This document shows, piece after piece, positions 1,031 to 61,900 of a stretch of DNA of 64,000 bases. The position numbers and the translations under genes were made by a program. Source of the DNA: Protonemura montana (taxonomy: Eukaryota; Arthropoda; Insecta; Plecoptera; Nemouridae); assembly GCA_947568835.1 (NCBI GenBank), contig OX387602.1:25161021-25225020 (forward strand), in the 5' to 3' direction. The notes beneath the pieces are model-generated. The model searched no databases. It worked only from the letters and a program-made list of their open reading frames with translations, and was not told the origin of the DNA. Numbering within the stretch: the first letter of the stretch is position 1; each line of letters begins with the position of its first letter.

Positions 1031-4000
1031 CTACAAGCCTCCACCGCTACGGTCAACATTGATCTTCTTTTTAAGCTGTTCTTTCTCGTGTTGCTCTTCT
1101 TCCATTTCTGCCATTCTAGCAAATCTAGAGTACGCAACATGTCCAGACTTAATGGCCGACATCATCTGAAAACAGCGACGTTATAGATTAACGATTAACT
1201 CAAAATATCAATGTCTCAAAGCTCGAAAAAGTTTGATTTAAAAAATCTGCATGCTGTAATAGAAGAGAAGTAAAATATATTGTGTCCAATGTGGCATCAT
1301 CCTCGGAGATTATCCTTGGACAATCAAGTGCTTATGCATTCTCTATGTGAGATCCAACCACAGTAGAACAATTTGCTTCTAATATCTCCACATATTTATT
1401 ATCTTACCACCCCGCCAAAGGGCCGGGCTCGGTTATGATTTCGTGATAGACAAATTGTAAGCGTGACAATAAAACCTCTTTACCAATTCTTAAGCAATCG
1501 TATTTCATGACATTTGTAAAGTGCATTTAAAATTGAGATGGGAAAAAATACAAATATTCGCTGATTTTTTTCGTAGAGAAAAGGGCACGGAATATTTTCA
1601 AAATAACCAGCAGGGCGGTTGTGTAAGAACTAAGAACTGTCAAAAAAGGTCCCGCGCAATAACTTGTCACTTCTATGGTTAACATTGGGTTTTAATTGGG
1701 AGGGATAAAGTACAAAAACTCGTTAAATATCTATTCTAAACAATCAACCTCCAGAGCAAATTTTCAACTACCATGTGATCTAAATTAGCAATGTAGTTAG
1801 TGCAATTCACATTCGAGCGTGCAACAGTCTGACATCTCAGACTAGGACAATTACTAATTTTAAAATGTTTGCTTTTTTGTTGCTTTTCACCCCGCAGAAA
1901 TTCTTATTTTTTTGGAATTGCTAAAAAAGTCATTTACTGTGTTGCCAGGGATTTGAAAATTAGGACCTATCATCTCGTCTATTAATTCAGACTCATGCCT
2001 GCTTTTGAACCTCAATCAATTTTTTTAGCCCTTCGAACAATTGATGAGAAAATAAATTTTAGGAGGATTCTATAGCTAAAGAAGTTAAAATTTAAGTTAA
2101 AATAGTTTTCCTCTGGCTAGATCTGACCTTAGATCTGATGCACTGAAGGGTTAACTGCTCGGAGGTGGTTATTCTGGAAACCCAGGGTCTTGGAGTATAG
2201 CAAAATATTATGTAGTTAGGTAATTTAAGAGCATGAGCAAAAAATGGTTTGTTTCAGGTGCAAGCACTCCATGCAGTCGTGATGATGTGTCTACCTGTAA
2301 ATACTCGTCCAATTCTACTTGGCCATTCATGTTTGTGTCAATCTCTTTCAAAATCTCATGTAGAGATTCGCGGGACACTTCTTCACCGGTAATCTGGAAG
2401 TAAAACATTAAAATGATCAAATTGCGTTATTTGTAACAGAGTGTTTATTTACCTCAAGATAGTCATGCAATTCTAGTTTCCCTGTGTCACACGTTCGAAT
2501 ATTACACAGAAGTTCATGCATTTCTTCCTGTGTAAGCGTCATTCCAAGGTGCTGAATAAATCAATTGTTTCCAAGATTAGTGTTGCATCAGTACGTTGAA
2601 TTAGGGCTTATATGTAAATACTTAGCTAAACTATTCCATCTCCCTTTATTCCTCTTATTTTAGGTTCACTTCTTTACTTCAATCCTCATGCCATACCAGT
2701 ACTGAGCTAAAAATGGATTCTTTTATAGATAACGAATTATATTGGGGTCAACCAGTGGCATTTTAAAAATGTATCCCCCAAAAAAGCACATTTTTTGTCA
2801 ACATTCAGATAAAATGAAATTTGAAAAAATACGCTCACTTTTGGGAAAACGTCACTGGCAGATCTTACTACCAATATATGATACTTTTTATAACAAATGG
2901 GACCTGGATTCGTATGCAAATCATAGTCACTCTACTGGTTAAGTTAATTGTTTGGACATCAAATTAAAATACATATGCTCCGCATTTACTACAACCTCAT
3001 TCTAAGTGTAATACAAATTTGGGAGGTCTAAAGATCAAACCCTTTATCAAACAAGGTCCACAAAATAAAAGAAGTGTACATTGAAAAATTGTGTGAGCAA
3101 AATGTACCTTAAGACCTCTCTGGATATCAGTAATGGAAACATATCCCTTCCTGTCCTTGTCAATGATCTGGAATCTCTTGATGTATTGCTGGATCTCATC
3201 TTTCGTGAGGTTGATGGGCTGCTTGTCTCGAGATGCCCGATTGACCATCTGTCCCATCTCGTCTTGCAAGAACTTGGTGGCCGACTCAATTTGAGCTTTC
3301 TTTACATCGTTACTCCATTTCAGCTCTTCAGCCATGATGTCTACGATGCCAGGAAGGGCTTCTTGAGCTGCCTGCCAAGAAATAGTTCATATAAGAATCA
3401 AAATATACATTCAAAAGAGTTTCTAGGAAAATACCATTTCGTCATTTTAATATTTTTGTTTCCAGAAAATGGTTTTAGAAAACATCTGTCCCATAATGGT
3501 CACATAATGTCACCTAAATATAAATTAAATTCTATATATTGTTTTTTCCCATCAGTAAAATTTTTAAATACCTGAACGTTGAGAAAAGCAAGCCGCAATC
3601 TCCTCGCAATGACATCGACTGCATTGCAAGCGTACTCTCGCACTGCGTATCGGACTTCAGCGTCGATGTAAGGGAACTCGGGATGAAGCTTCTTGCCGAT
3701 GATGGGCCAACGCTTGCCCGTGAGCGACGCTAGCCTGGCGACAGCAAAGGCTCGGTCCCCGTAAGAGTTGGACAAGTGCTGGGCGACCTCACACTCCAAC
3801 CCAAAGTCCTGCACTAGTCGGATGTACATTGTCGGTGTCCAGTCATGGGCCCCTTCGATGAGCAGCCCGTCAGTTTGGCTCTCCAAAAACTTGGGAGTCA
3901 GGTTGCATGCTGAAAAATAAATTCTTTCGTTTAGAAAAATAATTACCGAGTTATGGACGGTTATTTTTGTGGCAAATGAATTTGCACATTGTGGTACATA

Positions 4001-7000
4001 TCAATCATATTTTATTAACATTATTTTCCTTCTGGAATATTCAAATTTATAACTTATTTTGATTCCACAGCTAGATGTTCTTTGCCTGTCACATAATGTA
4101 TTTAACAAATAAAATCTTCTATTTTTATTTCACTGCTATTTTTGCAAATTTATAACATTTGCTTATTCAGTAGAAAGTTGTGGTTAAGAGACAAGAGATT
4201 GTACATTAATAATCATGCAAAAACCTTTGATTGCAGCATCAATTGTGTGCTCGGCCATTGCTCGATACGTGGTCCACTTGCCGCCGGCGATGGTGATGAG
4301 CTTCCCATCGCTGACATGCACTATGTGGTTCCTGGCTAGCGACTGTGTATCGCCCTTGTTTGGGTCTGAGACCAATGGCCGGATGCCGCTCCATGCTGAC
4401 AGCACGTCTCCGCGTCTCACTACAGGCATAGTAGTATTGCCGTTAACCATTAATTTATAAAAGAAATAAGCATTTGGACTGTTGTAAACTGCCAAATTGG
4501 TTGTACTGACTGCACTCTATCTGCCTTGCTGAGAGAAAAATTGTCTGGCTTTACAATTTGCATTCAAAGCCCAGTTTGGAAATAGTGTTTTTGAAAACAA
4601 TACGAAGGTAGACGATAAGATATACTACTAAGAACTAACTGTACATAGTACTGGTATGATAGTACACGATAGTACTCATAGGCTGTTTGCACATAAGCAA
4701 TCTTGAATCCACAGAGATACCTCACTCACACTTGAATAAAGTACTGTAAAGTAATAAAAGAACCATGAAATAATGAAGTACTTGACAAATTAATGAGCCG
4801 AATGTGGTCAGATACTTTTCGAAGCACATTTTTAAAATATGTTTTATAAAATATGTTAATATGTTTTTATAAAAAGATTCTACTATTTTTGGAAACCATA
4901 TTTTTATGACAGTGTTTATTTAAAAACAAATTCACAGTTATGCTTTTGGTTGACCTGGCATTTTCAATTCGACCCTCACAACAAAAGTCCCTTCAGCCGG
5001 TTCTACTGGTTGATAAACGTACCCTCCACATCGGGGTTGAGGTAATTTTTGACCTCCTGCAAGATGAACATGATCTCGTCCTCAGTGGGCTTTGGGTTGT
5101 GAGTGATGTCACAGGGCAGGTCTGTCGTTCCTGCGATTGTGTGCCGCTGCCACGGTAGGAAGAAGATGACTCGTCCGTCTGACGTGTCGGGATCCAGAAG
5201 CCCCATCTGGTCCGGGCTGTAATATCTGTCAAAAAAAAGTCCCACCATGTCACACTTTAACACATGTCTTGTGCCGTAACAAAGCATGGTGACAGGAGCA
5301 CCTGGGGTTGGTGGTTTCTGAGACAATCATTTTTGCCCTGGGGGTCCCTGACTTCTAACAATAGTTTGATTCCAAGCGTTAATGACATTTAGGTTGAAGT
5401 GCTATTTGGCACGATATTAATTTTGATGGATTAAGAGGTTTTAAGCAAATTTAAAACTCTGCAGATCTGTCTAATTTCTTTGAATCCTAAGAATTTAGTA
5501 AGATCTTCAGATCTTTGCTTCTTTGCTTTGATACAAAATTGGCAAGAACAAACCGAACATATTTCAACTAACCCTGGCAAAACAATGTGCACTCCTGAAC
5601 TAGGGCAGCAGATCTCCTTGACAGCCGGATTGTCCATCTTGCGAATTGAGTCGGTCTCGGGTCCTGTGGCATTGATGATGCACTTTGCGGTGACGTCCCA
5701 CTCCTTGCCGGAGAGCTCGTCGCGCAGGCGAGCACCACTCAGCACCTGCTTGGCATCCTTGTAGAGCTTTAGTACGCGGACGTGGTTGGCAACCGTCGCT
5801 CCGTGTCTTGTGGCCGTCAGCGCTATCGCAAGGTTCATTCGGGCGTCGTCCTGTTGGCCTGAGCAACAGTTGGTCGCGTTTAGACAGACAATATGCGCAT
5901 TCTATTTGTCTGTATATAGGTATAGCACTGTTAGCCTGCTTGGAACACGCATATGTTCCATTGCGATTGCATAGAGGCACGTGATAGAAATGGAACATTG
6001 GAAATCTATCCACGTTTAGCTTAGTTTATGGCTGACAAACAAACCTATTGCTCATAATAGAACAGAATTCTATTTTTAAGGTAGGTAATTGAAATTTTTC
6101 ACTTACCATCATAGTAAACAATTGCTCCTTTAAGTTTATCTCCTTTGATCATGGGGAAGAGTTCCAGAGCATCTGCTTTTGACAAATAGTATGAACTTTT
6201 CACCGTTTTTGAGCCGGCAACTACATCATACATCTTGATGCCAAACCAAAAGTACGGTATTTGCCACCACCTGAAAATGACAACATGATGATATATTGAT
6301 GATACTTAAAAGAGACAACTTCTATGTTCTGTCATCTTGTTGGCGGTTTACACCTGCACTTACGTATAGACAGGCAACATAATCGGAAGAGGGTGTGTAA
6401 GATGAGGAGCCGACTGCAACATGTTGGTTCGTTCATGTAGAGCCTCTTTTACCATACGATACTGCTCAATATCCAAATTCATGATAGCTTTTTGAAGGTA
6501 TCGAACTCCTCCATGAATGAGCTTTGTGCTACGACTACTTGTGCCGGATGCAAAGTCGTCAGCTTCCACTAATGCCGTTTTCAAGCCTGAAATTGAAAGC
6601 AAATGTAGAACTAGCTATAACTCTCTTTTGTTTGCATTTTGCTTACAGCAAGTTTCCCAACTTTGAACATTTTTAGGCTCTATTAAGATTTACCTCTGCT
6701 ACAGGCATCTAATGCACATCCAGAGCCTGTGGCCCCTCCTCCGATGATAAGTACATCAAAAGATTCAGATTGGAGGGATTTAATTTGTTCTTCTCTGGTT
6801 GGGAGATGACGCTTGGCTCGTTTGGCATTTTTTGCCTCTGCAGCTAACACAACTTCACTGATCTAAAACAGTAAAAAACATTCTTATGCTCGTGAAAAAA
6901 TGCATGTTAGTTTTACTTCCATAGATCAAACACAAAGTCCAACTTTCAAATAAATTTGATTGAAAATCGAATTTTAAATTTTCCCTCTTAAAAATTTCGG

Positions 7001-7309
7001 TACTGTTAAAGGTGGTTGACCTTAATCTGCTTTTTTAAATTTTTTCCTAGACAAGAAACAAAACCACGCACGAAAAGGGTTACAAAATGGCTTTCGTACA
7101 CTAATTTTAACATAGTAATCACTCCAACCAAGATACCTACAAGGTATGAGCACTAGAAACCTTAAATTTCACACTAATTGGTAGGCGTAGTCTTTTTATT
7201 TATTTACCTTCAATTTGTCCTCCCCGTTTAGCACCATCCATGACGCAATACATGCGCCAGCTCCAAGTGCTAATCCTCCAGCAGCGATTTTCCTCAATCG
7301 CGAAGCCAT
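1031..7309 (-). CDS. GPD2: mitochondrial FAD-dependent glycerol-3-phosphate dehydrogenase
   Basis: Inner-membrane flavoenzyme of the glycerophosphate shuttle; it oxidises glycerol-3-phosphate to dihydroxyacetone phosphate and passes electrons to ubiquinone. Coding exons (minus, 5' to 3'): 7208-7309, 6694-6862, 6364-6586, 6107-6270, 5573-5858, 5023-5225, 4225-4419, 3572-3909, 3108-3371, 2453-2551, 2295-2393, 1031-1165. All junctions are GT-AG and phases agree, giving 758 residues if every exon is used (human 727). The N-terminus MASRLRKIAAGG is basic then hydrophobic, as expected for import. The FAD dinucleotide motif is at residues 75-80 (GGGATG). STKLIHGGVRYL, NATGPETDS, GRVIFFLPW and IAGGKWTTYR are family signatures. 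EF-hand 1 is at 631-642 (D, D, K, D positions kept) and EF-hand 2 at 700-711. The C-terminus DRSGGGL is the conserved family end. Start chosen as the first ATG of the conserved N-terminus. Confidence 0.96.
2295..2393 (-). other. GPD2: GPD2 EF-hand 2 exon, calcium-competent version
   Basis: A 99-nt exon, phase 0 at both ends, coding 33 residues (ITGEEVSRESLHEILKEI, then DTNMNGQVELDE, YLQ). The loop DTNMNGQVELDE has D, N, N at positions 1, 3, 5, G at 6 and E at 12, a canonical calcium-binding EF-hand. It occupies the place of the single second EF-hand of vertebrate GPD2 and joins the last exon, which starts MMSAIKSGHV. Confidence 0.93.
2453..2551 (-). other. GPD2: GPD2 EF-hand 2 exon, degenerate duplicate (candidate mutually exclusive exon)
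   Basis: Another 99-nt, phase 0/0 exon, 59 nt upstream of its homologue. It codes HLGMTLTQEEMHELLCNIR then TCDTGKLELHDYLE, which lines up without gaps with the neighbouring 33-residue exon (E..HE.L..I....G...L..YL). The residues at EF-loop positions 1, 3 and 5 are R, C and T rather than acidic or amide residues, so calcium binding is not expected. Using only one of the two exons gives 725 residues, close to vertebrate length; using both gives 758. The 59-nt spacer is the shortest intron in the gene. Mutually exclusive splicing is inferred, not shown. Confidence 0.85.
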
Positions 7310-13700: not shown

Positions 13701-16700
13701 AGTCTTCTTTTGATCTCCTCGTTATCTCTGGCATGACATCATCCAAAATTTTCAGTTCCCTTTGCGTAAACACGAGGTCCAAAGCTTTCCGAATTCCAAT
13801 CATCACCACCAGCTAGAAGGGCAAACTAAATGTGTCAGAAACATTTGGAACTTTCGCGAGTTTCTTCGTTTCTTCGTGCGATATTTTTACTGACCATGAG
13901 CGGGAACAGAATCGACGTAGCGCTGAAAGACTTGATGATCCAGAGGCAAGCCAAGCACGTCATTTGAATCAGGGTGAACAAGTGCACTCTTTTGATGGGT
14001 ACCTGAAAGCACAGACATCCTATCAGGTTGCGGCTTAGAATCTTCGCTTCGGAATGCTGGGAACTAAGGTTCCCATTCCCTAGTCGTCACAGCTTATTTA
14101 TTTAGGGCAAGTTTGCTACAACCAGACACTTCTGTGTGCTTACTGGCTTCCATCTTTTAAGCTGTACGTTGTGTAACTGGTCCATATTCATCTTAATGTG
14201 GAGTGGAGATATAGTTACAGGAAGTTTGTAGGAAACGTAGACTAGGTAACTAAAATCAAGTACAAGTTGTAGTAATAACTTCATTTTACATTCGGTACTG
14301 ACAAGAGGAGGACCTAAGAATCGGGGGGTAAACACTGCGTCTTCGGCTCTCCTTACCTGTCGAAGGAACATGTGGTCAGGTTGGTACTTCGCCGGCATGA
14401 AAATGATGAGGATGCGGTCGAAGAACTGGAGCCCCTTAAGCGACGCCACCCCCATGTAGAGGAAGACGCCAAACAAGACCGGCATCGGAATGTGCTTCAA
14501 GATCGGTGTCAGCACCACAGAGAGGCCGATCATGAAGAAGATCATGATGTGCGTGACCCGTTGCTCCCTGGATAGTGGAACAAACGGTTTAAGGGACCGG
14601 GTTTAACATAATCTCACCCTTCGTCTTTGCCGGTTGAGTTCCACAGCATTTAGCTTAGTTCTGTATCTCTTCCTCGAGAGATATGAATGTGGCGATTACA
14701 CGATTGGCCAAAACGGGCGGTGTTTTCGTATGAGTTTCTCCCACCCCTAAGCGAAGAGCGTCGCGCGCATCTCTACAAAACGCGCTCATAATTTCTGCCT
14801 GAAATCTCACCTGACACCCAAGAACTGCGGCTTTTCTCCGGGCGCCGCGCACTCCGACTCGACCTTGAGCGAGTTGACGTGGTTGATCGACAAGACCGTA
14901 GCCGCGACAAACCAAGGCAGGCCCATGGCCGTGCAGATCATGATGAGGATCGACAGCACGAACAGGTCCAGATGGTAACCACACCCTTTCTGCAAATGAA
15001 CGGTGGATGCGACGCACCCACGAAACGCGTTAGCCGCTTTCCTTCCACACGTGCGTTCACCCGTTTACAGGGAGGTAGGCGATCACGGCGAGGAAAATGG
15101 GAGAGGGTTTTGTTGCTGAGACAACAACGATACCATGTGGGTCAAGAAACTAATTTTATGTCAGAAAATGCATGTAATTCAGGAAATGTTTATTATAAAT
15201 GAGCTCTGTTAAAGAGCGTGATGAAATTCACTCTAGAGCAGCTCCGCTCTGGTGTGATCTAATCGGAAATTTGAACGACTTCCATGATGGCGTTGGATAT
15301 GATTTCTGATTGAAATTGCTAAATGGGTGTCACTGCGATATCTGGTAATAGAAAGGCCTCCCATCCCCCACCGTAACTTCCTCTGGGCTGCAGGAAAGCC
15401 ATCGGAGGTGATTGGTTGTCGCCAAAGTTCAAGCCGCCCATTGGCATATATGCTCGTTCAAGATTCACTTATCCTTTTCTAGAGTTTCCTGTTTACCTTC
15501 AGTTTATTTTCCTTTCGGTTGATGATGACGGCGCTGATCTGTTGATCCATGAAAATGAGGATGACACCCAGCAACGCGGGGAACACTCCAACGATGGCAG
15601 TCCAGTAAGGGTTGTGGTTGAAGGGGTGGATCACCCAGCCACGAGATGGAAGGGTAGGCTTGAACTCATGAGGTACCTGGTGAAAGAGAAACCATTTTCA
15701 AGACACTTTATAGTGGTCTTCAAATGTTTTGACGACAACATTTGCGACCGGAGAATAATCTCCTGAAAATAATTTTCAGTAGATTAAGCTCCGAGCATAA
15801 AATATAAGCAGATTCTTCCCAATGGCTTCAAATTTGAACAAATATCAACGAAACCTACAAAACAATCTTAATTGCAATTTTTAATGTGGAAACATTCTTA
15901 AAGCCCATTAAAACCCAAAAAACCCAATGAAACCAAAAATAACCCTAATACCTAATAACGGCCAGTGGATTGGGTTAAAAACACTAGGTTCTTACATCGC
16001 TGACTCCTTTTACTAACGCATTGAATGGATGCTTCCTAGAGTAAAATCTATCCTTAAATTAAAGGAAATGCGAATTGGAGAAAATGCTCGTGTTCGAGAA
16101 AATTCTCTAAAAGAAAATGCTTTCAAGTATTAGGTATCTCTACTTACGTCTAATTTAGGTGTGCTGATGCCCAAGTAGAAATCTAGTCCAGTCATCGAGA
16201 ATATAGCAATGATGACACCAAAGTCGCTCACGTATTGACGGACCTGAAACAGTGAGATAAATATTGTTGTCAACATTATAGCTGTAGTTCATGAAAGAAT
16301 ATGGGAACTGAGCTAAAAGCACCCATAATTTTAAAGGTGGAGTTTGCAATTGTCATTTGCATTTGGGACTACCTTTGGAGATAATTTTAGGTTTGGGTCA
16401 AATAAACCATGGCTTAATATAGCAACAATTGAGGATTAAGAAATAATGCGATGAGTTTAGGCCTGAGCCGTTTCATAATTAAATCTGGCTCAGATTTGAA
16501 GTCAAGAAACAGAATGACAAATGTGACAAATTGACTTAGATGCGTGTATCATGGATTGGAAATCTCAACTTTCCCAAGCTCTGGAGTTGCCCAAACTACC
16601 AGCAGCGTCGAAAACGTTCTGACCTATAAGCACCCTGGGCAAACTTGACAAGGTTCACTTACCGTCGAGGGGAAGAACAGCGCGTTCTTGAATTCCTTAA

Positions 16701-19700
16701 GGGTAGTAGACAAAATGAATGTTCCCAGGAACAGGATGATTGACATCAGGAATACGTCAGGCACGTAGGGGTAGATGCCGCATTCGTCGCCGGCCATCGT
16801 GCCGTTGTTGTACTGTAAGAACAATGCAGACGGTTAGTATCTTGGTTTCCGCACCTAGAGAGTTTACTCATGTCCGGTTCAGTAGGTGGGGTCTCACTCA
16901 CCAAACAGGTCTGCTTTTCCAACGAGGTCCAGTTACTGACAATGCTGTTCGTGGAGCTGTTGGCAGGGGGTATGCAATAACAATTGAGGCTGCCGAGAGT
17001 CGTGTTTCCCGATCCATTTATAGGGTTCTGTTTGCCGATCAAGATAACATTCTCAACCGCCTGAAGAAAAAAAAGGAAGTCATGCAATATATATTACATT
17101 TCAACTGTTATCAAAACTAACAGGGGTGGTGTCCACTGTAAATGGACATTTTCATCTACTCTCCAGATCTTGGAGTTTCCAGAACTTACCTTATAGATGA
17201 AAATGAAAGCTATAAGCGTGGCAAAGTTTTCTTCGGTAAAACGTGTAATGTAACACACTAAAGCACTTGCGTCGACTGCTACCAAAATCAAGAGTATACA
17301 CCCGATCCACATTCCTATCCAGAACCGGAACGACATGTAATCCCATTCGAGCGATCTGGAAGAAAAGCACATTTTTGTTGAGCCAGTGCACCTGAGTTGC
17401 AAGCCCCTAACTGTAGCTTGATTATTTCCACCCCTTTAAAGAGTCTTATTTGGGAGGATGGGAGCAGCAGTTAAATAACCTCCCATCTTCTCGCCGAAAA
17501 AATTTACCAAAATCAAAGATGGATATCTTATCCCGCGGGACTACTACTTTACTTTTCACTTGGGTGGTACGAAGGCATTGGGTAGCAAATGGTAGAAATG
17601 TTTACTTGCTTGCTTGCTTGCTGGTACTTACTGGCAAAACTCGTACATGATGGTCTCAAACACAAGAACGGGCCCAGTCGAGCCCAGGATGGTAAGCGGC
17701 TGGCCCGAGAAGAACCCATAGCCGATGCCGCACACAAAGCCGGAAACCAGAGACTCCATGGCTGCCATGTTGTTTCCGGTGGCCTGGCCTAGCAACCCAC
17801 CGAACGTGATGATCGGCGATAAGCAGGCGAAGTAGAGGAAAATCCACGAAGCAATGCACTGCATCGATATTGCATCCTTGAAGTCTGACCAGTACCTGAA
17901 ACACAAAAGAAGTGCGCATTTTGGTCCCGGGCCATGTTTATGTTCTTCATTTCAACAAAACAAAGGAACAATTGCTAATATTTCGCATGGAAAATAAAAG
18001 GGCTTCATTTGTATTGGTACACAAATTATTTACCAAGGCGCTTTTCGTTTGAGGTCGTTCATCAGTCCACCGAAGAGTATACCAGTTCGAGAAAGTCCAG
18101 ACTCTTCTCTCAGCCTTTGTTCATCTTCCTCTTCATCTTCTTCTTCAAACTTCTCCGGCTGTCGTTTCCGACTCTCCTGAAAAGTCAAGTGTAGTTTCAG
18201 CAAAAAGAACTGGTTCCTATGTTCCCATGGAACTGGTTTTAGTATATGGGATATTTGTTTTTAAAACTTTTGGGGAAACATCATTATCAGTAAATTTAGG
18301 ATAAAGATTTGTATTTCCTGTCAATTATCTTATGCCTACGCTTTCCTGTATGCCTTTGACAATTGCTACTTAATAGGCCGAACTAAATACGATAGGCAGC
18401 TTAACCGCTAATGATTGCCCCCATTGACTCTGAAAGTCGTCATCAACAATCACAGAAGTAACTAAAACTAGAAGTCGTCAATCAGCCGAACGAACCAGTC
18501 GATTGTGACAAAGTCCGACAAAGCAAAGGGGGTTCTCAGACTCACCTGCGACGGGATCGCCGCGGGGGGTTCTATCCTGATGGATGGGTCCCATTCTCCA
18601 GGCGGCAGCACGGTGACGGCGTCTAGGAACTCATCGACGGCGGCGAGCAGGTGGTTCCGGTTACGCGCCTTGTACGCGACGTCGTGGAACACTTCGTCGG
18701 ACATGAGCGTCGCCATCGCTCGGCCGATCTCGTGGAAGCCACCGATTCCTCCCTAAAGAGACACACCCTGGTCTTTTAGCTCACGGGGCGGAACTCACTA
18801 ACTAAATATTGTGTTACCAGCGCTACCAGCTACTTCGAAGGTACTGTAGAATACTTGCTGAAACTGCAAGTTGCAAAGGGTACATTCAAGAAGCAGCATT
18901 TAAATCCACGACTAAACATTTCAAAATCATGTTGCAGAATAGTATTTGCAAAAGTCGCGAGAGGTAACTCAAAAGAACTTAGCGTCATCTAATTTCCCCC
19001 CAAACTAACATTTAAATTAGTTCGGGGTGTTATTATTCAACTCAACCCTGTTTACGGACCGATTCGTAACAAAATAAGTAGATGCAGGTCTGTGCAATTT
19101 ATTATTTTGTAATTATTTTGCTTTCTATTCTTGTTTTATTTAATGGATACTTGTCGATTTTTCGGCTATTATTATAATAAAAAAATTTCCTCCAATTGTC
19201 CACGCAAAAGGTCACACCAAGGTCACAGCGCAATGTTCAAATCCCACTCCATTTCCTCGGTTCTGTACTAATTCTCCATAGATTACCCACTTACAATAAT
19301 TGCATCTGCAATTAGTACCCAAGTACGCATTACAAGCCCATTACCAATATGACAGCAGAGCGTTATTCTCTCTGCATGCACTCCGGACCGGTGTTAAATG
19401 CACTGGTGAGGCAGGTATTTCGCGGTTTATGGCCGCGAGAGAAACCGGTGTGTCGGAATTCCAATCGCAGTTCACATTTGTCAGTTTGCTTTCAAATATC
19501 TCGGATGACATTGAATAGAGAACACTTTTCATGACATTAGATATTGCAGATGTTAACGTTGTGTAAGCCTTTGGGCTGTGGCACCAGGGTGGGGCACAGG
19601 TTTTCTGGAAGGGGGAGCGAGTAATTACTAGCGCTTACCGTAGGCCCAAGCAAAATGAATATGAAGCGCGTAGGTACGGGCACTTCCGTCAGGTCGCCCA

Positions 19701-43587: not shown

Positions 43588-44778
43588 ATGGATGAGCTGG
43601 ACGAAGAGAAGACTCCAGAATACATGGCCCTAGCACAGATAAAGTTTGAACTGCGCTTACCTGAAAATAGAGACAAAGTCGAGCTTAAAGAAAAGCTCCT
43701 AGCTGGAATAACTGCTTGCAATATGGCTCCATTTTATACCAAAGTATGTGAAGATCTCGGGTGGGAAAGAGATCAAGCGCTTCTAGATACGATGATCGAC
43801 GCCAACAACGAAAGCCTGAAACAGTTTGAAAAGGAAGTAATCCCAGATACATCCACCTTGGATGACGATTACAGTTCCAGGATGTGGTATGAGAAGCTTC
43901 TTTTTCTGTGCTCCATTGGCGATGAACAAGCAGCGAAAGAATTGGCAACATCCAAGTTGTTGGACAAAGACCTGTCAGTGAATCGGCGCCTGGATGTTTA
44001 CTTCGCAATGTACCGCATTTCGTATTTCCACGGCTGCGACTTGAAGGGCATGAAAAGCGCTGTAGACAAAGTGACGGCCATGGTGGAGGGAAAGGGCAGT
44101 GGCGACTGGAGCTCAAGAAACAAACTCAAGTGCTATGAAGCCATCTGCTGTCTGGGTTTCCGCAATTATGAGCGGGCGGCAAATCTCTTTTTGGACGCTC
44201 TACCCACATTTACATCGTACGAGCTGGTATCATTCGGAGACTTTGTCCGGTACGCGGTCTTGGCGGCGATGATTGCCCTACCACGAAACGTTCTACACGA
44301 AAATCTCACCAAGCAAGGAGTCGTTCCTCAAGCCCTGCACTCGGAACTGCCCATTCTTCAAGATTACTTCTCGTCGCTGTACGAATGTTGTTACTCCAAG
44401 TTCTTCGTATGTCTCGCGGAAATCGAGACGATATTAAGGAACGACCCACTGACTCGCCCACACATGCGCCAGTATGTACGTGAGATGCGTATTCGTGCGT
44501 ACTCGCAAATGCTGCAAGCGTACTCGAGTCTTAGTCTGCAACGAATGGCCGAGGCGTTTGGTGTCTCCGAAGAGTTCATCGAGAAGGAGATCGCACGGTT
44601 TACGGCGGCAGGCCGTCTGCATTGCAAGATAGACAAGGTGGCTGGTACAGTCATCACTAGCAGGCATTTGCAGAGCAATGCGGATCGCCGTCGAGAAATG
44701 GTATACCAGTCGACAATCAAGTGTGGAGACAATCTGCTAAATCGCCTTAAGAAGCTTACAAAAATTATGGAGTTTTAG
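43588..44778 (+). CDS. PSMD6: 26S proteasome non-ATPase regulatory subunit 6 (Rpn7)
   Basis: Scaffold subunit of the 19S lid of the 26S proteasome, which degrades ubiquitinated proteins in cytosol and nucleus. The single exon codes 396 residues (human 389) from an ATG in good context (acaaaATGG). The N-terminal helical repeats include NMAPFYTKVCEDLGW. FTSYELVSFGDFVRYAV, YVREMRIRAYSQMLQ and MAEAFGVS lead into the PCI domain, with FIEKEIARFTAAGRLHCKID and the C-terminal helix GDNLLNRLKKLTKI. The PCI part is well conserved, but the N-terminal half (about residues 85-150) differs strongly from the usual Rpn7, including loss of the common AFRKTYDKT-type stretch. An AATAAA lies 80 nt after the stop. 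It may be a retro-derived paralogue rather than the only Rpn7 gene. Confidence 0.93.
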   Translation: MDELDEEKTPEYMALAQIKFELRLPENRDKVELKEKLLAGITACNMAPFYTKVCEDLGWERDQALLDTMIDANNESLKQFEKEVIPDTSTLDDDYSSRMWYEKLLFLCSIGDEQAAKELATSKLLDKDLSVNRRLDVYFAMYRISYFHGCDLKGMKSAVDKVTAMVEGKGSGDWSSRNKLKCYEAICCLGFRNYERAANLFLDALPTFTSYELVSFGDFVRYAVLAAMIALPRNVLHENLTKQGVVPQALHSELPILQDYFSSLYECCYSKFFVCLAEIETILRNDPLTRPHMRQYVREMRIRAYSQMLQAYSSLSLQRMAEAFGVSEEFIEKEIARFTAAGRLHCKIDKVAGTVITSRHLQSNADRRREMVYQSTIKCGDNLLNRLKKLTKIMEF

Positions 44779-46800: not shown

Positions 46801-49800
46801 CTGAAAAAGGAAAAATTATTTGTTATTTAAGCACTTCAAGGTAAGGTTTTTAAAAATTTCTTTGTGTATCTAGCCGCCTGAATTTGCCATTTTGAATATG
46901 ATAATATTTTGAAAACATTTTGCCTTACCTGCAGATTGGTACTAGTTTCTCCCGCTTTCTCCCCCATGTCAGGCATTTTAGTCAATGCCCCAAATTCTTT
47001 TCAAATCCCTACTTATACAGTTTGAGACTACTTTAAAACCCATGAGAATCAAACTCTTTTTAAAATGATAACTAAAATAACACTTGCCCATTCTTCTATT
47101 TTTTCATGCATTCTAAATAAAGCCATAAAGAATTCCTCTTTTGGTTGTGGCAGGTATGTATTAAAAGAATAGAATAAAACTCGTGAAATAATAGGTGAAA
47201 AGAATAAAACTAGCTCTTTCTGTGCCCCCACTAGTTTTAATCAATGTGGATCCTTTCTAGTCAAACTGTGGGAAGAAACATTAACGTCCAATGGTCCAAA
47301 GTTGAGCCAAGCAATTTTGACCGACTGGGAATGGAAATGTGGTTGATTTATTTAGACCCATAAATAAGCTTTCAGTTTGCAGAACAGATAAAAAATAATT
47401 AAATTGTATTCTGGATGCATTCCAGTCTCGGGTCACCTGATATACTGACGAGCCAGTTTGGCTTGTTCTTCCAGTAGATGAAGATCAAGTAGACGGGAAT
47501 TCCCGAGAAGATGAAGACAAGCCCGATACCGACCTCCCAGGGCGTGACGTAGCATGGCAGCGTCACCAGGAACAAGCAGATCACGAAGAAGATGATCGGG
47601 AAGATTATGTTAACCTGTGCAAAGAAAACCAACCCGTTTAAGGCATTGAATCACTGCAATCGCTTGACATCTGACAGAGCAGCAGGCTAGGAGATAAGGC
47701 TCAATATGTTTTAAAATAAAAAATATACTTAGTACTCCAAAGATATTGTTCTTAGATTTGAAGGGGAACTTAAAAATACAAAATGTTGATTATAATATCA
47801 CGAGCATTGATCATGGGTAACGCAATCACTAACATTGTTAAACCAAAAAAAAGGAAACCAAAAAGTAGGCTGTGACCTTTGAATCGATCCAAAATATTCG
47901 TTCAAGAATGGCATAAGTACAACAGTTACTTCATGGCTTCAGTTGCAGAATAAAGTGGCGTGGCAAAATTAAAAATTTTGAAGATTTCTAGGTATTTACA
48001 AAGTCTTGGTTTACAACACTTAATCAATAAAATCAATAAAAAAAAAACTGTTTAATAATGAATGCAAGCAGATGAGCTCAATCGAACCTTGATCGGTCTT
48101 TCGAAGTCTGGTCTTGTGTGTCGGAGCCAGAGTAGACCCGACACAGATATGGTCGTGAAGAGCGCCTCTACGAAGCTTAGGTAGTTGATCAGAACGTAGA
48201 CGTCTTTGATCACGAGCAGTATCAGAGTAATGATGCACTGAAACATAAAAACACCAATACACTTCAAGAACCAATCAATTTCTTTAACCATAATTATTGT
48301 CTATCTAAAATGGTTGTGTAGGGAGAAAACTTTGCAAATCTGTATTTGACAAATTATTTTGCCTATCATATTTACTTTTATGTGAAGAATCTTCAGTCTT
48401 AACGTCATTTCAAGAAATTATCGCAAACTTTGGGTTTTTTTTGTGGATAAAATCCAAAATTGAGAATGGCTACTATGGTTTTCACTTTTGTTTAAAGGAT
48501 GTAAACCTGTATAGGAATGTACTTGTTGGGTGCTTTTAACACTCCGATACACCAAATGGGTTGTAGGCAAATTTTTTCAAAACCAGTCTATTACTTGAAA
48601 AAAGACATTCCTGTGTTTATCTGCGCTCTGCAGTTATAGTGGTATGCTACAAAAACCATAGGTCTGAACACCCGAAGACCAAAACAAATTCAGTATGTAA
48701 ATAAATGTTTAGTTAAATTTGTTTCTCAATGGAATGGAAACTAGACTGGAAAAATGTGCAACCGAACCGAGATATGAACCCGAAACCTTCCAATTGCCAG
48801 TTGGGTGCTCTACCAACTGAGCTATCCGGGCACGCATAATCCAGCTTTTGCGGGGTGGGATAAGCGATCCCCTCAAGCCCCGGCAAAGAGACAGAGGCGA
48901 CTTTTATTGACGAGTACTTAGTAACTCTGGACAGGATGCTAATTCAACAGCCTTATGGAGAGAATCGTCTGTCACTTTTCCTCGAATCCCGTTTTTATCT
49001 CGAAAGATAGATGGTTGTTGCAGGTTTTTTTATTTTTCTAGTGTTTCCACTTATGAGCTGAAACCAGCAAGCGAGGGATGGAAAGGAAGCTTTTCATTAT
49101 TACACAACGTTTCACGATGAGATATACACTTAAGTAGCAGATAATTTGCATGTATGTTTCAAACAGATTGCTGCTTACCCTGTTTTGACCAACAACTTGG
49201 GCATACAGAGATCATTTAACAAATTAATGCAGACATCTGTGAAAATTTGGCCTGTGGCACCAAACAAGAATAAATTGGTACATTAATACAGGAAGCAGAT
49301 TCTAAAAAAAAAACTACAATTTTTATAATTGTCTAATTCTAAAATGGTCTTCTAGCCAAAAAGTGTTGTTTGACTCTGCATATATCACAACCAGCTTTTT
49401 CAAACTTGGTAAGTTGCTTTCCTTTTTTCCTCTTCCCTATTAGATAGAACAGCTTTTCAGCTCTCTTACTATTGGAACGTAATGGTTCAAAGGTATTCAA
49501 TTAAGGCTGACCAGAAAGACTAGTGACGGCACTGGCGTGAACTTGTCGACGTTGATGAGTGCGATGGCCTTGGGTAAGTGTCCTTGTCGTGCTCCGACAA
49601 AGAAAAGACGAGATGAGGCAAAGATGGCTCCGTTGAGGGCACCAAACGTGGAGCACGCAACAAAGAACGGCATGATCCACGCCATCACGCCCAGCAAGTT
49701 GTCGCCAAATGTCTGTATTGGAAGGAATGGACAATAAAATTACTGCTGGCATCAATATCAAAAACAGTCTTTTAAATGTGATTGTAAAAGTACTAATGAT

Positions 49801-52800
49801 AAAGGGATGTATTTTGATATTGAAAACTTCTAGAATTATTACAAATGCCAAAATTATTGAAAATGATCTTTTAATCAAGTAAACAAAATATTCTGTACAG
49901 CTAATGGTTCAGAAAAAAGACGTTCAGACCATCAGAGATTGACAGGGGTCAATGGGTGAGATGGGATACAAACTAACTAAAATTTTATCACAAAAATTTA
50001 TTTCCTTTCAGAATCATCGTAATCGTTTTTCACCTTGACCTTTTAGTTTGTCTAGACCAGCACAGAATGAAGTACTTCAATTGGACTAAATGCGTTCAAG
50101 ATATTTGATAAGTCATGTCAGAAAATAAGCATTTTTAAGCAACGCACCACTGCCACAGCATTCGATGATAAAATTTCGTCCCTTGTTAAAACCACAAAAT
50201 ACGCAATATTCGTGAGGACGTAGATTATCGTCACCAATGGTAACGAGATACCAATGGCCCTCGGAAGGTTTCTGGAACAAAAAATTTGCATGCCATTAAA
50301 GTCTCAATGAATGTTCTAAATGTAGAGCAAATTAAATATCAATCACTTGAAAGTCTCACTTGTACGGTTCTTTCAATTCTTCTGTAACGAAATTGAGATA
50401 ATTCCTGAAAGAAAAAATTGGTGGTAAGACATTTGAAGACTTTCAGCTTACGAGATCCGTTTCGTAATATTCTTGGCTTCTTCTAGTTAAAGTGCCATGA
50501 TTTCAACAGCCATGATTTCAACAGTCAATTACAAGCAATGAAATTTATTTTTTTCTGAGACTAACGAGTTCTTATGTTATATGCCAATAAAAAAACTGGG
50601 CTTTTAATATCCTACAGATTAGGCGTAGAACATTGTATAACTAAGTCTGCTTGTCCCTTTACTTACCATCCCGAATAGGAGAAAAGGCCAGAGTAGAATG
50701 CCAGTGCAATGTATCCCGGCTCAGTGGTGGTACCGGCAAAGGGCTCCTTGAAGTTGTCGGTCTTGCCGGAGACAAGTACAACAACGCCGGCAATTATGAT
50801 GATCACCAGCGCTAGGATCTTGGTGCCCGTGAAGATGTCCTGGACGCGAGTCGCCCACTTCACGTTGTAGCAGTTTATGGCTGTCAGCAGACCTGCAATG
50901 CAAAAATTAGGTATTTTGTGTTTAGAAAAAAAAACAGCAGCTTTTAAACGTGTTGTACGTTTTTTTTCATCTAGGTTCACTAAAACATGTTTTCTAATCA
51001 AAGAATTGAACCCTGGTCCTCCAGCAATTGCAAAATGTGATCTGGCCAATTGAGGAAGTTGATGCCTAATATTAAATAATATCTCCTCAGTGCTGCAGTT
51101 TAACATAAATAAATAAGCATACATAAAGTGCTTTTTTTGCCTTGTGATATCCACCAAACGCCACTTAATTGAATAAAACAAGGGATGGCTGTGCCCGTAA
51201 GTAGGAGGAACTGGCCAAGTACTTCCTGAAGTTGTCAGGACAACCTTTCTGGTATTTGTATTATATTTTTGCGTTTTCTCACCGTGCCAGGTTTCGAGCC
51301 TGAGACCTCCATAATACCGGACACACAGATTTTGAAATCCCATTTGCTCGATAATCTAACTGGAGAGAATACCACGCCACCAATGCAGACCATTTGGACC
51401 ATAGGACCATTTGATCAATTGTATACATATTGATATTGCCTTCACTAAAGAGATTTTTTTCTTTTAATTTAAAATGTTTATCTAAGATGGTAATTGGTAG
51501 GTCACTATTTGTTATTACTGCTATTACTGGTTTTGTTATCAGTTATGTATCAGTTATTATCATTGCGCATGTTTGAAAAGCTGAGTTTATTTTTCAATAA
51601 TGACTAAACCATGCCTTTTCTTCAGCTCGAAGCACAATCCAATACCGATATTCAAATTTTATTACCATGTGTATGAAACCATTTGTTATTTACGTGTCAC
51701 GATGTCAACACCTTTCGCTTATTTTTTCAAAGCGATAGTGATAACATTTATTGAAATATCGTGTCGGTGCTTACGGTCTCTAACCAGAGAGGGAAGTGGC
51801 TCCAATTATTCTGTCAAGCCGGGTTAGAGAGAGGGTCTATATCCAGTGCAACCGATCACCACGCTCGTCAGAAAAGCCGGCGTGATCTGACATCCGCGTG
51901 TAAATCCAGTCAGATCAAACTGTCATTAAAAACAGACTGTACCGGAGATCAAATTTGTTCAGATTAAGACCTTTCAAATTAGGGATCCATTGAGTTGTTA
52001 AAAGACTTTGATTTGGAAGACAACAATACAGTTCGTGACGCCTCGTGTATTGGAGTTGGCAGCACCCACTCCTCTATGGGTCCACATGATAATAGGTCGG
52101 GCAATTGTCGCCCTAACCATCTTGTCACACAAGTTTGACATCACACACCCATTGCCACATCGCTGTCCCTAATCCAGTTCCAGTGGCACCACTTGAATCT
52201 TGTGAATCTTAAACGACTATCATCACATAGACGCTCAAGCAAAGTACACAGAGTCAACGGGTTGCTTTGCGCTGCGTCTTGATTCAGGCATTTGAATCTA
52301 GAACGAGCACCGAGTAGTAATCCAGCCACTTTCTGGAGTTTATACTTATACAAAACTTTCTGGAGTTTATACTTATACAAAACTCGAGCCATATCCCCCG
52401 CCAAAGTGGGATTCTTTGTGTAAAACGTGATATTTCGCTAGAGCATCGCCACACAATCACCACCCATTCTTTAAAAAAAAACTTTGCATGAACCGCCACA
52501 AGCGACACTAACTGGTGACAAACAGCAAATGAGCTAAGTTTAAATTGGGCATAACCATTTATTTAGACTGAGTTGGCAAATTATACTGTACAGAAACCCA
52601 TCCGGTGTGTTTATTGCCGCTTTTTGGCAAAGCGCAAGGCTTCTGTCACTCCGACAGAAGTGAGGGCGTAATTTTCATCAAAGTTTAGAATTCAAGTTTA
52701 GCTTGTCTAATTATTTTCCACACGTGCGTGCTAAATCCAAGATGCTTGTCTGTCGCATTTCAAGGGCTGTAGAAACTGAGCATGAAAAGCACAATTGTCT

Positions 52801-54807
52801 CAATAGTCCGTCGTACGTATATGAAGCCAACATTTCTCTCTTCATTTTGCCCACGTGAAAGTTCACCTCTAGAGCAGTCGGACTCGGATATTACTGGCTG
52901 TGCGATAGATGATGGATTTCAAAACAGTCTGCGTACCTTGTCTCGCATAAACGACATATAATCTCGAGAAGGAGGGGGAGCTTGCTTCTTTTGCGTACAA
53001 TCAACTGCTATGGTGAAGTATAGCTTCAAACCTAGTTTCATGAAATGTATGCAAAAGGCTCCATGTGGCTCAATGGTCAGTTTAGTTTAGATATTTGTGG
53101 GTCCTGAAATTACGTGGTACTTATACATATTATATGAGAGGTAGTGGTGGCAAAAATTTTCCTGGTAGAAAAACTAAAGAAAATCAACTTCTCCCTGTGT
53201 CGATGAGTTCCTTGAAAAATTTTAGTGGGGGAGGGGGAGGGTAAGGCGGATTGGTGGCTACCCCCCCCCCCCCCCTTCCCTTCACATGTCGTCAACGGCT
53301 ATAGTCAGGGATTCTTATTAGCGTGGAAAGCTGTTTTCTTCTTCAGGCGATATAAATAGTATGACATTGTCTCATATTTTACAAGTTCCTACTCCACGGG
53401 GATATATAATTGAGTAGATTTTTACTGAGTAAGGAGACGAGTCTTTACTAGTAAGAAGAATTTACCAACTCTCCGAGATACGTTTGAGACTCTTGCTCAT
53501 GCTTACACGTGATGACGGCGGCCAGGAGGCGCACGGCGGCATACGGGGGTTCGCAGCCCGGCCACATTGGCTGCAAGATGTACTGTGCAAAGGTGAGAGC
53601 TGTGATGGCGTTGCCCGTGGGCACGATGATGAACAGCGCCACCCACAAGTAGAGGAACGCCGGCAGCGGGCCGAAAGCCGTGCTGATGTACGCATAGTCG
53701 CCTCCGCTCTTCGGGATCATCGTGCCTGCAGCCCGGGAGATATGACATGCCGGGTAAACAACCGAGATGCAAATCAAATGTTTACATAGATTACAATAAG
53801 GATTATCTGCAGGGTAATGTCAAAAAGAATGGATATAATATACTGCAAACAATATGAAAGCCTGGCCCGAAGGACAAATGAATCATGCCCACAGGTATAC
53901 TGCTTCGACGCTCAGACAAGATACAAACGAAAATGAAACCAGGGAGCTTGAACGAGTGTTTTAGTTTAGGAGCTATTTTCTATGAAGGTGTAACCAGATT
54001 ATTTTTATTTTCGCAATGTCTACGTAGCTTCCGATATCCGAAGCCGTAGGACGATTCGAAGACTTGACATTTCTAACCACGACGTGGTTTTCCTTGGTTA
54101 TTTGACACCACCATGTCAGGACACCACCTTATGCTGCTATACACCTAACAACTGGTCCAGGAAATTCCCTTTCACCCTACCTCGTTATTAAACCGGATGA
54201 CTAATCTCATTATATTGCGCGGACATGACCTCCCCTGTATTAACGGCTAACCATAGCTGTTAACTTTAGCTCCTGGACGAGAATCTTGCGAGATGCCGCC
54301 CGGATGAGACCAGTCTTCAACCCCATTCCACTATTACACAAAGCATAGGGGTCCGGGAAGTGCTATAAAAATATAGCCTAAAGGCGAACAAAGATACTGT
54401 ACAGACAAAAACATATGTCGAGCTCCTCAATCTAATGCACGTTAAAAAAACTAAACAATAAGCCATAAGGTACTAGGTACAGATAACAACATTGAAACGT
54501 GAAGCTTACCTAATTCAGCATAGCATAACGCACCAATCATCGACAGCAATCCCGATAATATCCATATAACCAGACCCAAGCCTATCGAACCAGAGGCCAG
54601 TAGTACACCTTTGGGGGACACAAAAATACCCGCCCCTATGATAACACCGACTATGATCGCGACACCGTCCAAAAGTCCCAACTCTTTCTTCAGTTGAATC
54701 GCATTCTTGCTCACATTCGTAGTCTCCGTTGTCGTACCCCCATGGTCGGTACAGTCTCTTGGCCATGGAGCCGAATCTTTCATGCCCACTTTTTTAGTTT
54801 GTGCCAT
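46736..54807 (-). CDS. L-type / y+L-type amino-acid transporter light chain (SLC7 family)
   Basis: Twelve-helix APC-superfamily exchanger of neutral and/or cationic amino acids; family members pair with an SLC3 heavy chain at the plasma membrane. Exons (minus): 54510-54807, 53507-53725, 50667-50892, 50360-50404 (45 nt), 50148-50271, 49512-49712, 48088-48237, 47437-47614, 46736-46800. All GT-AG, phases consistent, 501 residues (family about 500). Motifs: [16 protein letters not shown] in TM1 (GxGIF substrate loop), [65 protein letters not shown]. Cys157 in PMWPGCEPP matches the cysteine that makes the disulphide with the heavy chain. The cytoplasmic N-tail (residues 1-45) is hydrophilic. Start is the first ATG in frame (54807), just after an A-rich leader. 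Substrate specificity cannot be assigned. Confidence 0.95.
48715..49100 (-). mobile_element. tRNA-derived SINE copy (composite)
   Basis: On the minus strand 48756-48832 reads as a tRNA-like block beginning GTGCCCGGATAGCTCAG and ending GGTTCGGTTGCAC. The A box lies within 48807-48824 and the B box GGGTTCATATC at 48771-48781. The anticodon-like loop shows GGC but its stem is imperfect. A flanking segment at about 49012-49095 matches the body that follows the tRNA part in the copy at 60739-60832. The element sits in an SLC7 intron. Confidence 0.8.
51260..51350 (-). mobile_element. decayed tRNA-like SINE fragment
   Basis: Minus-strand B-box-like GGCTCGAAACC (51290-51300) lies inside a T-arm-like hairpin CAGG-CTCGAAA-CCTG (51288-51302). 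The A box is too degraded to place. Family assignment is tentative. Confidence 0.35.
51990..52404 (-). pseudogene. degenerate ORF remnant with internal tandem duplication
   Basis: In an SLC7 intron. A minus-strand frame reads [30 protein letters not shown] and [18 protein letters not shown], then an in-frame TGA, then [14 protein letters not shown] and [18 protein letters not shown]. The protein-like composition across a stop suggests a decayed gene or transposon fragment. A 27-bp unit is exactly duplicated at 52328-52381 (coding KVLYKYKLQ twice). Family not recognised. Confidence 0.3.
52328..52381. repeat. 27-bp perfect tandem duplication
   Basis: Two identical adjacent copies, 52328-52354 and 52355-52381, each starting actttctggagttt. 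Confidence 0.95.
53224..53280. repeat. G-rich then C-rich low-complexity tract
   Basis: G runs (GGGG, GGGGG, GGG) at about 53226-53241 followed by 15 consecutive C at 53261-53275. The two arms could pair or form a quadruplex/i-motif; most likely simple-sequence expansion in an intron. Confidence 0.8.
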
Positions 54808-56894: not shown

Positions 56895-57175
56895 GTTTTG
56901 ACAACTGGCCATGCAGCGTCGGTGAATGAGTGGATGATGATGAACCTAACCTAGTCTAGAAGGGAGGAGGGGAAAACCGGTGCCGGCACTTAGCCTACTC
57001 CTGTCAAAGAGCACCAAGGGGACCACCGGCTTAACGTCCCTTCCGAAGAACGTTACAACTGGGCATGTGTAAGATGGTCACCCATCCAATACCAGACTCA
57101 GCGCATTGTTACTTAACTTCGGTGATCTAACGAGAACCGGTGTTTCCAACACGCCAAACCGTTCAGTACCAATCT
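56895..57175 (-). mobile_element. 5S rRNA-derived SINE (SINE3-like)
   Basis: Read on the minus strand, about 57172-57060 resembles the internal part of 5S rRNA: CTCGTTAGATCACCGAAGTTA (57112-57132, read in reverse), the A-box-like GTTAAGTAACAATGCGC (57101-57117) and the C-box-like GGATGGGTGACC (57076-57087), in the right order. A non-5S body follows and ends near a TCATCATCATCC run (about 56934-56946), which may be the repeat tail. An authentic 5S gene would keep its 5' and 3' stem, which I do not see. Confidence 0.72.
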
Positions 57176-58931: not shown

Positions 58932-61900
58932 TCATTCCGTGTTTAGGACCAGCGTTTCCGACCCCTTCTCTCTGCGTACTGTGCCCGCATTGTGCCGGGC
59001 CTCCTCAAGGCAGCGCTGTTTGCATTCCAGGAGGCTACAAAATAAAATATTTATCGTCATTAAGTCACACTTTCAAGCATCGTGGAATCAAAAGAGGTAA
59101 ACAAAAAGTAACTTCTCTAACAGGAAATCAAGATTCTCTAAAAACTGAGCAAAGCAATAAAAACTACTGTTTGATTAGATTTTGCACGTGGACACCCAGT
59201 GGTTAATTTCAGGGTGGAAGCGGATGGACGGCGTCCACCACCCTTTTTTTAGGGTGGACGTGGGTGGACGGCGTCCACCCACCTAATTATTTTCGAAATG
59301 CCTTTTATTTTAATTTTGCCTTGTCAATGCGCTGTTCTAATTAACTCAGAGTGCGGACGATACACCATTTTACTAGCCACAGTAAAAGCCACAGTGACAA
59401 TTGCATCAAATACTGTGGAAATAAGTGTAGAAAATAAATGCCTGGCAATCCACGAACGAGAAGTGAGAACTCACATCTGCAGATCCCCCCACAATTTCAT
59501 CTGCCTGGCGCGGTTCGTCTGGCTCTCCTTGACGAGTCGCTGGTCTTCGCGAAGATGCCGCCCGCGGCGCTCGTGTTCCGTGATTTCCGCGGCAAGCATG
59601 TCACGTTGGGACTTGGCCCCGCTGTCTGCTGCTCCAGCTCCCGCCACATAGAGCCGCACCTCGTCCGCCATCTGCCTCAGCCGCTCTTCGCTGATTACGG
59701 ACTCGGCCGCCAGCAGGAACGTCTTGGACTCTCGGCTAAACACCTGCTCTCGGAGGCTGCTTACGTTCTGAGGAAGAAACACACATTTTTTGTTATGAGC
59801 TGCCACACAAGCCACTTATGTCTTGTAAGGAGGGACTAAGACGAAGTTTCAAAGAGGGTTTGTAGTTTGCACACATCCACACTCTTTTGAAAAATAAAGT
59901 GGCCCTGAATTTGTTTCAATAAAAAAAGTCGAGGGTAAATAACAGAAAATTGCCATTTAGGTAGTCACTAAGACGTTCAGACATAAGAACTTCCGAATTC
60001 AGGGTATTAGCAATGAACTGGTGTGTACATACTGGTGTTTATCGGTGGATAAACCTTCTGAAGGGCGTTGGGAATAATGTACCTGTTCTAGAGTGATGAT
60101 GTTACTGTCCAGTCCAGCTGCAGTTGTGTTGTAAATCTTCTTCTTTTCCTCGTATTTTTCTGTCACCTCCTGGCATTCTTCCCGCAGTTGACGCAGTTCT
60201 AATAAGAAAAATATTTTGATCAACTTTAATACTGGTATATTTATCTGGCTGCCCCGGTGTGATCCAGTGTGCACTGGGGGCGATCTGCATGATTGACTGG
60301 GCATGTGATGTGACTCTGTTCTAGTGCAACTTTCACGAGTTCGACTGGCAGAGTTGCTCGCCCTTGGGTGCAATTAGTAAACAGATGAATGTACTGACAG
60401 CTAGTGATCACGTATTCGGGTGGAAGCGCTCATGTTCAGAGCTGGTGCAAACCCGGTGGAGAACATGGCATCATTGAGCAAGTTTAAAACCCGCCTTGGT
60501 GCAGGGCAATCGAAAACGCTTTGAGATTGATAAGATTTCAAAAACAGAATTATCCTGTGAGAATAGTTTCCACAGTTCTCTTTCTGTGACTTAGGCTGCT
60601 AACACAGATTGAGAAGCCATTATTTTAATAGTTAGAACTAGATTTATTTCTTGGCAGCAATTTTCATAGTTAATAACAGAAACAGGATAGGAACCTGGGA
60701 GGTCCTTCCTGGGTTCATATCCCCATTTATATTTTTCTAGTCTAGCTTCTTTTCCATCATTCGCTTGCTGGTTTCAGGTCCATAGTGGAAACGCCAGAAC
60801 AACCAAAAACCCTGCAACATACTTCAAAGTTTCATAAGGTCTACCCAGAATTAGAAATTAATTCCAGTTTTCGGCTTCATTATAGAACTAAACATTAGTC
60901 TAAAAATAAGGTTTTGTACCTGGTGCTTATAGCAAATAAAACTCAATATTTTACTCAACCTTTTATGACAGGAGCCAACTGTGCACTCTTGCTAGCAATC
61001 CTCTGCGATAGCTGGACTACCAGTGACGACATGTCTTCCAGGGACTGTCCCTTGTCCTGGTCCACTGTGTCCTTTTCTCCCACCACCTGATCCAGCTGAT
61101 CCCGGGTTGCCAGGTAACCTGGCTGGGATTGTTCTGTCAACTGGATACAAACAGGTACAGGGTTCTTGTAATTAAACTTAACACTTTCCTGCTCCAAAAC
61201 AATTTCAGATAGTCTCAATTGACAACAATTTTACAACATAGAGTACAAAAACTAAACAAAAACCAGTCTCTAGGACAGTTTTCTCCTTTCACCACCAGAA
61301 AAATATTAAGTACCTATTTTAACATGTCAACGACTCAGACGTTGATATAAATGGGTTCTTCTCACACAATCTGAATTTTGCCTCACCTTTTAAAGAAAAA
61401 TACGGTAGGTACTATGAAGGCAATGTAGTGAATTTGTTCAAATAAAAGATATAAATTAGTAAAAGCATAACCTTCATGACTGCTTCATCACGAGACTTCA
61501 GAACTTCGATCGTGCGAGACAAGACGCCAGACTCTGCTTTCAGCGCCATCAACTCTGCTCGGTGCCTCTTGTACAGTGCACTCCGCCCTCGCAGTTTGTT
61601 TACGTATCGTTTAAATTCGTCACCTCGCAATACAGTCTCCCCTGCAAATTCGTGAAGCTGAGTGTTCTTCTCGTCCAACTCTTGCATGAGCGTCGCCAAG
61701 TCGGCTTTCAGCTCAGTAATCTGGTCAACCGTCTTCACTTTCTTCCGCGTTATTATAGCAGCTTGTTGCCGGAATGGTGCAAGTTTATCATCAGCTGGGT
61801 TAGAGGTGGCCATTTGAGTCTCGACCATCCTGTTGATTTCTTTACTCATTGTTTGGATTTTCTCATTGAGAACCTCGAGGTCACTTCGCCCCATTGCTGG

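Follow-up and report, generated by a model that had tools for sequence, protein, structure and literature searches.

Duplicated exons that switch the calcium response of a protein are already known from OGDH and from alpha-actinin. In the excerpted text of PMC7969005, human OGDH is described as a mitochondrial dehydrogenase under calcium regulation, with forms sensitive and insensitive to calcium that are produced from the homologous exons 4a and 4b. The distance between the 5′ splice site and the branch points, 25-41 nt, makes these exons mutually exclusive; for vertebrates, a steric limit of ~50 nt on this distance is quoted there. In alpha-actinin, mutually exclusive exons in the EF-hand region alter calcium sensitivity; this protein is cytoskeletal, and alternative splicing of its EF-hand is said, in the sections available, to be limited to chordates (PMC9177970). 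The locus described here, from the plecopteran Protonemura montana, resembles both systems, but it encodes a metabolic enzyme, GPD2 (mitochondrial glycerol-3-phosphate dehydrogenase), which differs from OGDH in identity and compartment, and which carries an EF-hand pair in place of the DADLD site of OGDH. Whereas exclusivity and branch points were measured for OGDH (PMC7969005, in excerpt), their counterparts in GPD2 are predictions.

Tandem homologous exons, of which one enters each mRNA, are also a feature of muscle myosin heavy chain, and such clusters have been reported from protostomes, arthropods included (PMC3912159, in the portions available). Myosin clusters are larger, and they alter motor properties rather than the calcium response. 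In the genome studied here, one gene at C1:6015301-6018763 contains six tandem matches to part of the myosin head profile (~376-436), spaced ~410-570 nt apart, and this segment looks like a mutually exclusive exon cluster, presumably that of the relay.

GPD2 channels the electrons of cytosolic NADH into respiration. The vertebrate enzyme, that of mammals included, contains a single copy of the second EF-hand segment and is near 725 residues in length. In mammals, the EF-hand domain of this same enzyme was reported to face the intermembrane space, and rising calcium acts through the domain to lower the Km for glycerol 3-phosphate (excerpts of PMC3933693). A preprint, as excerpted, proposed MICU2 as a further source of calcium sensitivity for a GPD2/SDH assembly (PMC12270237), so that the second EF-hand need not be the sole calcium input. 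In chilled Apis cerana, glycerol-3-phosphate dehydrogenase was found among the alternatively spliced genes, in an excerpt that specifies neither the GPD nor the exon (PMC11677483). No report of an exon pair in GPD2 or in Drosophila Gpo1 was seen among the matches listed, although a prior listing may exist; a term search in the available text of PMC3228551, PMC3923563, PMC7954323, and PMC5740500 returned no mention of the GPD2 pair, and the available part of PMC6556048 held nothing relevant to it.

The window (the whole 64,000-nucleotide stretch of DNA that was analysed) contains the GPD2 gene on its minus strand. Its features, in window coordinates, are as follows.

1031..7309, minus strand: GPD2 gene, 12 coding exons from ATG to stop, the alternative exons A and B being counted separately
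3108..3371, minus strand: exon 9, which encodes the first EF-hand (EF1), where the EF-hand matches begin; predicted to splice to A or B
2453..2551, minus strand: exon A (exon 10), 99 nt, non-canonical second EF-hand with the loop RTCDTGKLELHD
2394..2452, minus strand: intron between A and B, 59 nt
2295..2393, minus strand: exon B (exon 11), 99 nt, canonical second EF-hand with the loop DTNMNGQVELDE
1031..1165, minus strand: exon 12, end of the second EF-hand, C-terminus, and stop codon

The introns of the 12-exon model are bounded by GT and AG, and its spliced translation is free of internal stops. All four combinations of A and B are in frame, with products of 725 residues (A only), 725 (B only), 758 (A and B), and 692 (neither). 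In searches of Pfam, the 725-residue B form matched DAO (191.9 bits), DAO_C (143.5 bits), and EF-hand_7 (49.5 bits), all above the cut-offs, and the product thus combines the FAD-dependent oxidoreductase, DAO_C, and C-terminal EF-hand pair by which GPD2 is recognized. Its best relatives of solved structure were glycerol-3-phosphate dehydrogenases and alpha-glycerophosphate oxidases, while calmodulins matched the tail. Judged by its sequence, the gene is that of GPD2, for which a calcium-activated function at the inner membrane is predicted. When the flavoprotein part and the tail were each searched against the genome (258 Mb, 34 contigs), with the best candidates scored, no second GPD2 gene came to light to which the other form could be assigned. 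Two contig collections that hold no animal genomes were also searched: 28 pattern hits were obtained among the prokaryotes, including two bacterial loci with short EF-hand-like matches, which were dropped, and none of the nine pattern hits among the viruses was kept. In neither collection was an orthologue of GPD2 found.

Exons A and B are each 99 nt long, open, bounded by AG and GT, and in phase 0/0, and they encode the same 33-residue segment of the second EF-hand. The two peptides align without gaps and are identical at 12 of 33 positions, with a BLOSUM62 score of 57; none of 20,000 residue shuffles reached this value (maximum 29), and only two other stop-free 33-mers, taken from all six frames of the whole window, scored 28 or more against either exon (33 and 30). 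Adjacent, similar in length, identical in phase, and homologous in peptide, A and B have the properties of homologous exons. Comparison by codon position revealed 13/33, 22/33, and 11/33 identities at positions 1, 2, and 3, respectively. Shuffles as high were not seen in 10,000 trials at position 2, and made up a fraction of 0.05 at position 1 and 0.21 at position 3. Conservation of the second position, with the third at chance, indicates that the duplication is old and that the protein rather than the DNA has been conserved. The pair is thus best read from its codons as an old duplication maintained by protein-level constraint, which makes it unlikely that A is a recent or a dead copy.

The two exons differ in their calcium loops. 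The B loop, DTNMNGQVELDE, has acceptable ligands at positions 1, 3, 5, 9, and 12 and, with Gly6, conforms to the canonical EF-hand. In the A loop, RTCDTGKLELHD, the ligands of the first three of these positions are replaced by R1, C3, and T5, while Gly6, E9, and D12 are retained, and the loop is not canonical; loss of calcium binding is predicted from the missing ligands 1, 3, and 5, and the second loop of the A form would therefore not bind calcium in the normal way. The fold appears to have been kept, as hydrophobic or aromatic residues occupy all eight of the core positions chosen for inspection in A. The EF-hand pair was recognized with either exon (Pfam, cut-off 30 bits), at 54.9 bits with B and 36.1 bits with A. 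With EF-hand_1 (cut-off 25.4 bits), the B form gave 39.8 bits in two stretches, and the A form 21.6 bits in one stretch, located in EF1. The tail containing A alone matched calmodulins and further EF-hand proteins of known structure. The earlier note, which was made from the letters of the window, had placed the two exons at these positions with equal length, 0/0 phase, and gap-free similarity, had given 725 residues for one exon and 758 for both, and had assigned the canonical loop to the downstream copy and the loss of ligands 1, 3, and 5 to the upstream copy; the spliced model, the alignment, and the residue-level inspection agree with it on each of these points.

The note was also right that the intron between A and B is the shortest in the gene, at 59 nt compared with 93 nt for the next shortest. 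None of the 64 reference introns is as short (minimum 76 nt; seven of the 64 below 100 nt); these are alignment placements from a few genes rather than annotation. The reference introns were derived by spliced alignment from the SLC4 and SLC7 genes of the window, from myosin genes, and from VCP. Of 113 placements, 54 had a similarity score of at least 10 on both sides and were kept, and the 10 other introns of GPD2 were added to these. The neighbouring genes of the window are the following.

13702-18074, minus strand: SLC4-type bicarbonate transporter gene, in part
47444-54693, minus strand: SLC7-type amino-acid transporter gene, in part
61412-62605, minus strand: IFT81 gene, in part

The span of the SLC7-type gene also includes a tRNA-family match (48759-48831, minus strand, 47.9 bits), and an uninterrupted 396-residue frame for the proteasome subunit RPN7/PSMD6, possibly intronless, lies at 43588-44778 on the plus strand. 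Among the 59 placements that were dropped, seven fell below 76 nt (43, 47, 48, 50, 60, 70, and 71 nt), and four of these (43, 47, 48, and 50 nt) below 59 nt; support for all seven was weak, one flank or both having scored under 10. The 47-nt placement, in SLC4, was rejected with flank scores of -10 and -21; by eye its length is 89 nt, and the 64 count this intron at neither length. In VCP, two placements (355 and 128 nt) passed the filter with doubtful splice sites and leave the minimum unaffected.

Introns of ~59 nt are routinely spliced in some animals. Within the 59-nt intron, no AG precedes the one at its 3′ end, and the predicted branch points of the yUnAy type that fall at usual distances are 36 and 45 nt from the 5′ splice site. 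These candidates may correspond to the exclusivity of OGDH and alpha-tropomyosin, in which a too-short intron or a distant branch point puts the branch point within the splicing limit of the species, but the sole candidate of a 77-nt reference intron lies at 37 nt, and all of these positions are predicted. Scored with matrices built from the 64 reference introns, among which the introns of the A acceptor and the B donor themselves sit, so that the comparison is slightly circular, exon A has an acceptor at the 48th percentile and a donor at the 80th, and exon B an acceptor at the 75th percentile and a donor at the 5th. Neither exon looks disabled at its predicted splice sites, and the weak donor of B would be compatible with regulated use. 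Competing RNA pairing of the Dscam type gave no signal in a weak, single-sequence test, in which 56 and 64 of 100 mononucleotide shuffles of intron 10 equalled its best duplexes with intron 9 and intron 11, respectively.

A dispersed copy of the exon pair is present elsewhere on the same contig, 1.39 Mb away. Window positions 2036-2621 recur at positions 5576-6161 of a second locus, L004 (C1:23773575-23774160), as a segment of 586 nt, in which 582 of 586 positions are identical (99.3%). The segment spans the two exons with the 59-nt intron between them; none of the 198 exon bases differs, and of the four differences one falls in the intron. Genome searches in which the best candidates were scored found no other GPD2 exons beside the copy, which is probably inert. 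Because the copy is flanked by inverted repeats of 452 nt, it was considered that a transposon had captured the exon pair, with the repeats as its terminal inverted repeats. A genome search with the repeat gave at least 41 matches, 40 of them nearly full length (40 scored of 405 candidates), and in nine of ten copies inspected the repeat extends beyond the 452 nt on both sides. Its many copies and its extension identify the flanks as a common dispersed repeat; the terminal-repeat assignment was rejected, and capture is unsupported. Sequences resembling 5S rRNA occur at window positions 57047-57164 (minus strand, 54.5 bits) and at L004 positions 4023-4143 (plus strand, 62.6 bits), inside repeats common to both places, and each is more likely a repeat derived from 5S than a gene. 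Short reads of the two GPD2 exons would align to the window and to the dispersed copy alike, and discarding multi-mapped reads would give the false impression that neither exon is used.

We propose that A and B are mutually exclusive exons, which arose long ago by tandem duplication of the exon for the second EF-hand, and that they probably provide GPD2 in a calcium-responsive and a non-responsive version. Each mRNA would take either A or B to yield a 725-residue enzyme, and the two forms would match in length and diverge in the second EF-hand. From the effect of calcium on the mammalian EF-hand domain, a calcium response is expected of the B form but not of the A form: with a calcium-binding second loop, the B form would be calcium-activated, whereas the A form would retain the EF-hand fold and be either insensitive to calcium or locked in a single state. 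Joining of A to B would be disfavoured, provided that this species cannot efficiently splice an intron of 59 nt, and retention of the intron between the two exons introduces a stop at codon 693. The frames of A and B are always compatible, so frame would not enforce the choice were the intron spliced.

For exclusivity speak the equal length, phase, and protein position of the two exons, and the EF-hand pair that either exon leaves when used alone. Against it are the routine splicing of introns of ~59 nt in some animals, the four weakly supported placements below 59 nt, the small number of reference genes, the 37-nt candidate of the 77-nt intron, and the absence of a pairing signal. One alternative is that both exons are constitutively spliced, which would produce a 758-residue enzyme with EF1, a non-binding EF-hand from A, and a canonical EF-hand from B. 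The joint reading frame is indeed open, A and B together match EF-hand_7 with 56 bits in two stretches, and the short intron has good splice sites, with its donor at the 80th percentile and its acceptor at the 75th. However, this arrangement would need the removal of an intron shorter than any of the 64 reference introns, and, as A and B align without gaps at one position, the presence of both would leave one EF-hand without a partner; we regard it as improbable. About as unlikely is that B is nearly always used and that A is an optional cassette or a minor form, added or substituted without regulated choice. The loss of three calcium ligands and an acceptor that is merely average would suit such a role for A, but its donor is stronger than that of B, and long constraint at the protein level argues for regular use.

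The lost ligands would also be expected if A were a relic of the duplication that is never spliced in. Such a relic would hardly have retained its frame, its length, both splice sites, the inspected core residues, and identity at 22 of 33 second codon positions since a duplication old enough to bring third positions to chance, and this explanation is very improbable. The reading as mutually exclusive exons, which the earlier note had advanced as a calcium switch, thus stands in part: the constraint, the splice sites, the EF-hand pair, and the short intron point to two working alternatives for one protein position, while the search for RNA pairing lent it no signal. The further proposal that a short, hard-to-splice intron forces the choice between a calcium-binding and a calcium-blind exon, and with it, tissue by tissue, whether the glycerophosphate shuttle is activated by cytosolic calcium, and that GPD2 is the second such mitochondrial dehydrogenase besides OGDH, is a tentative one, to which we give somewhat less than an even chance.

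If the two exons are used in this way, tissues of P. montana could set whether calcium drives the glycerophosphate shuttle. The locus would then parallel the exon switch of OGDH, with another enzyme in another compartment, and the A and B forms would constitute a natural matched pair of enzymes, with which the role of the second EF-hand could be tested.
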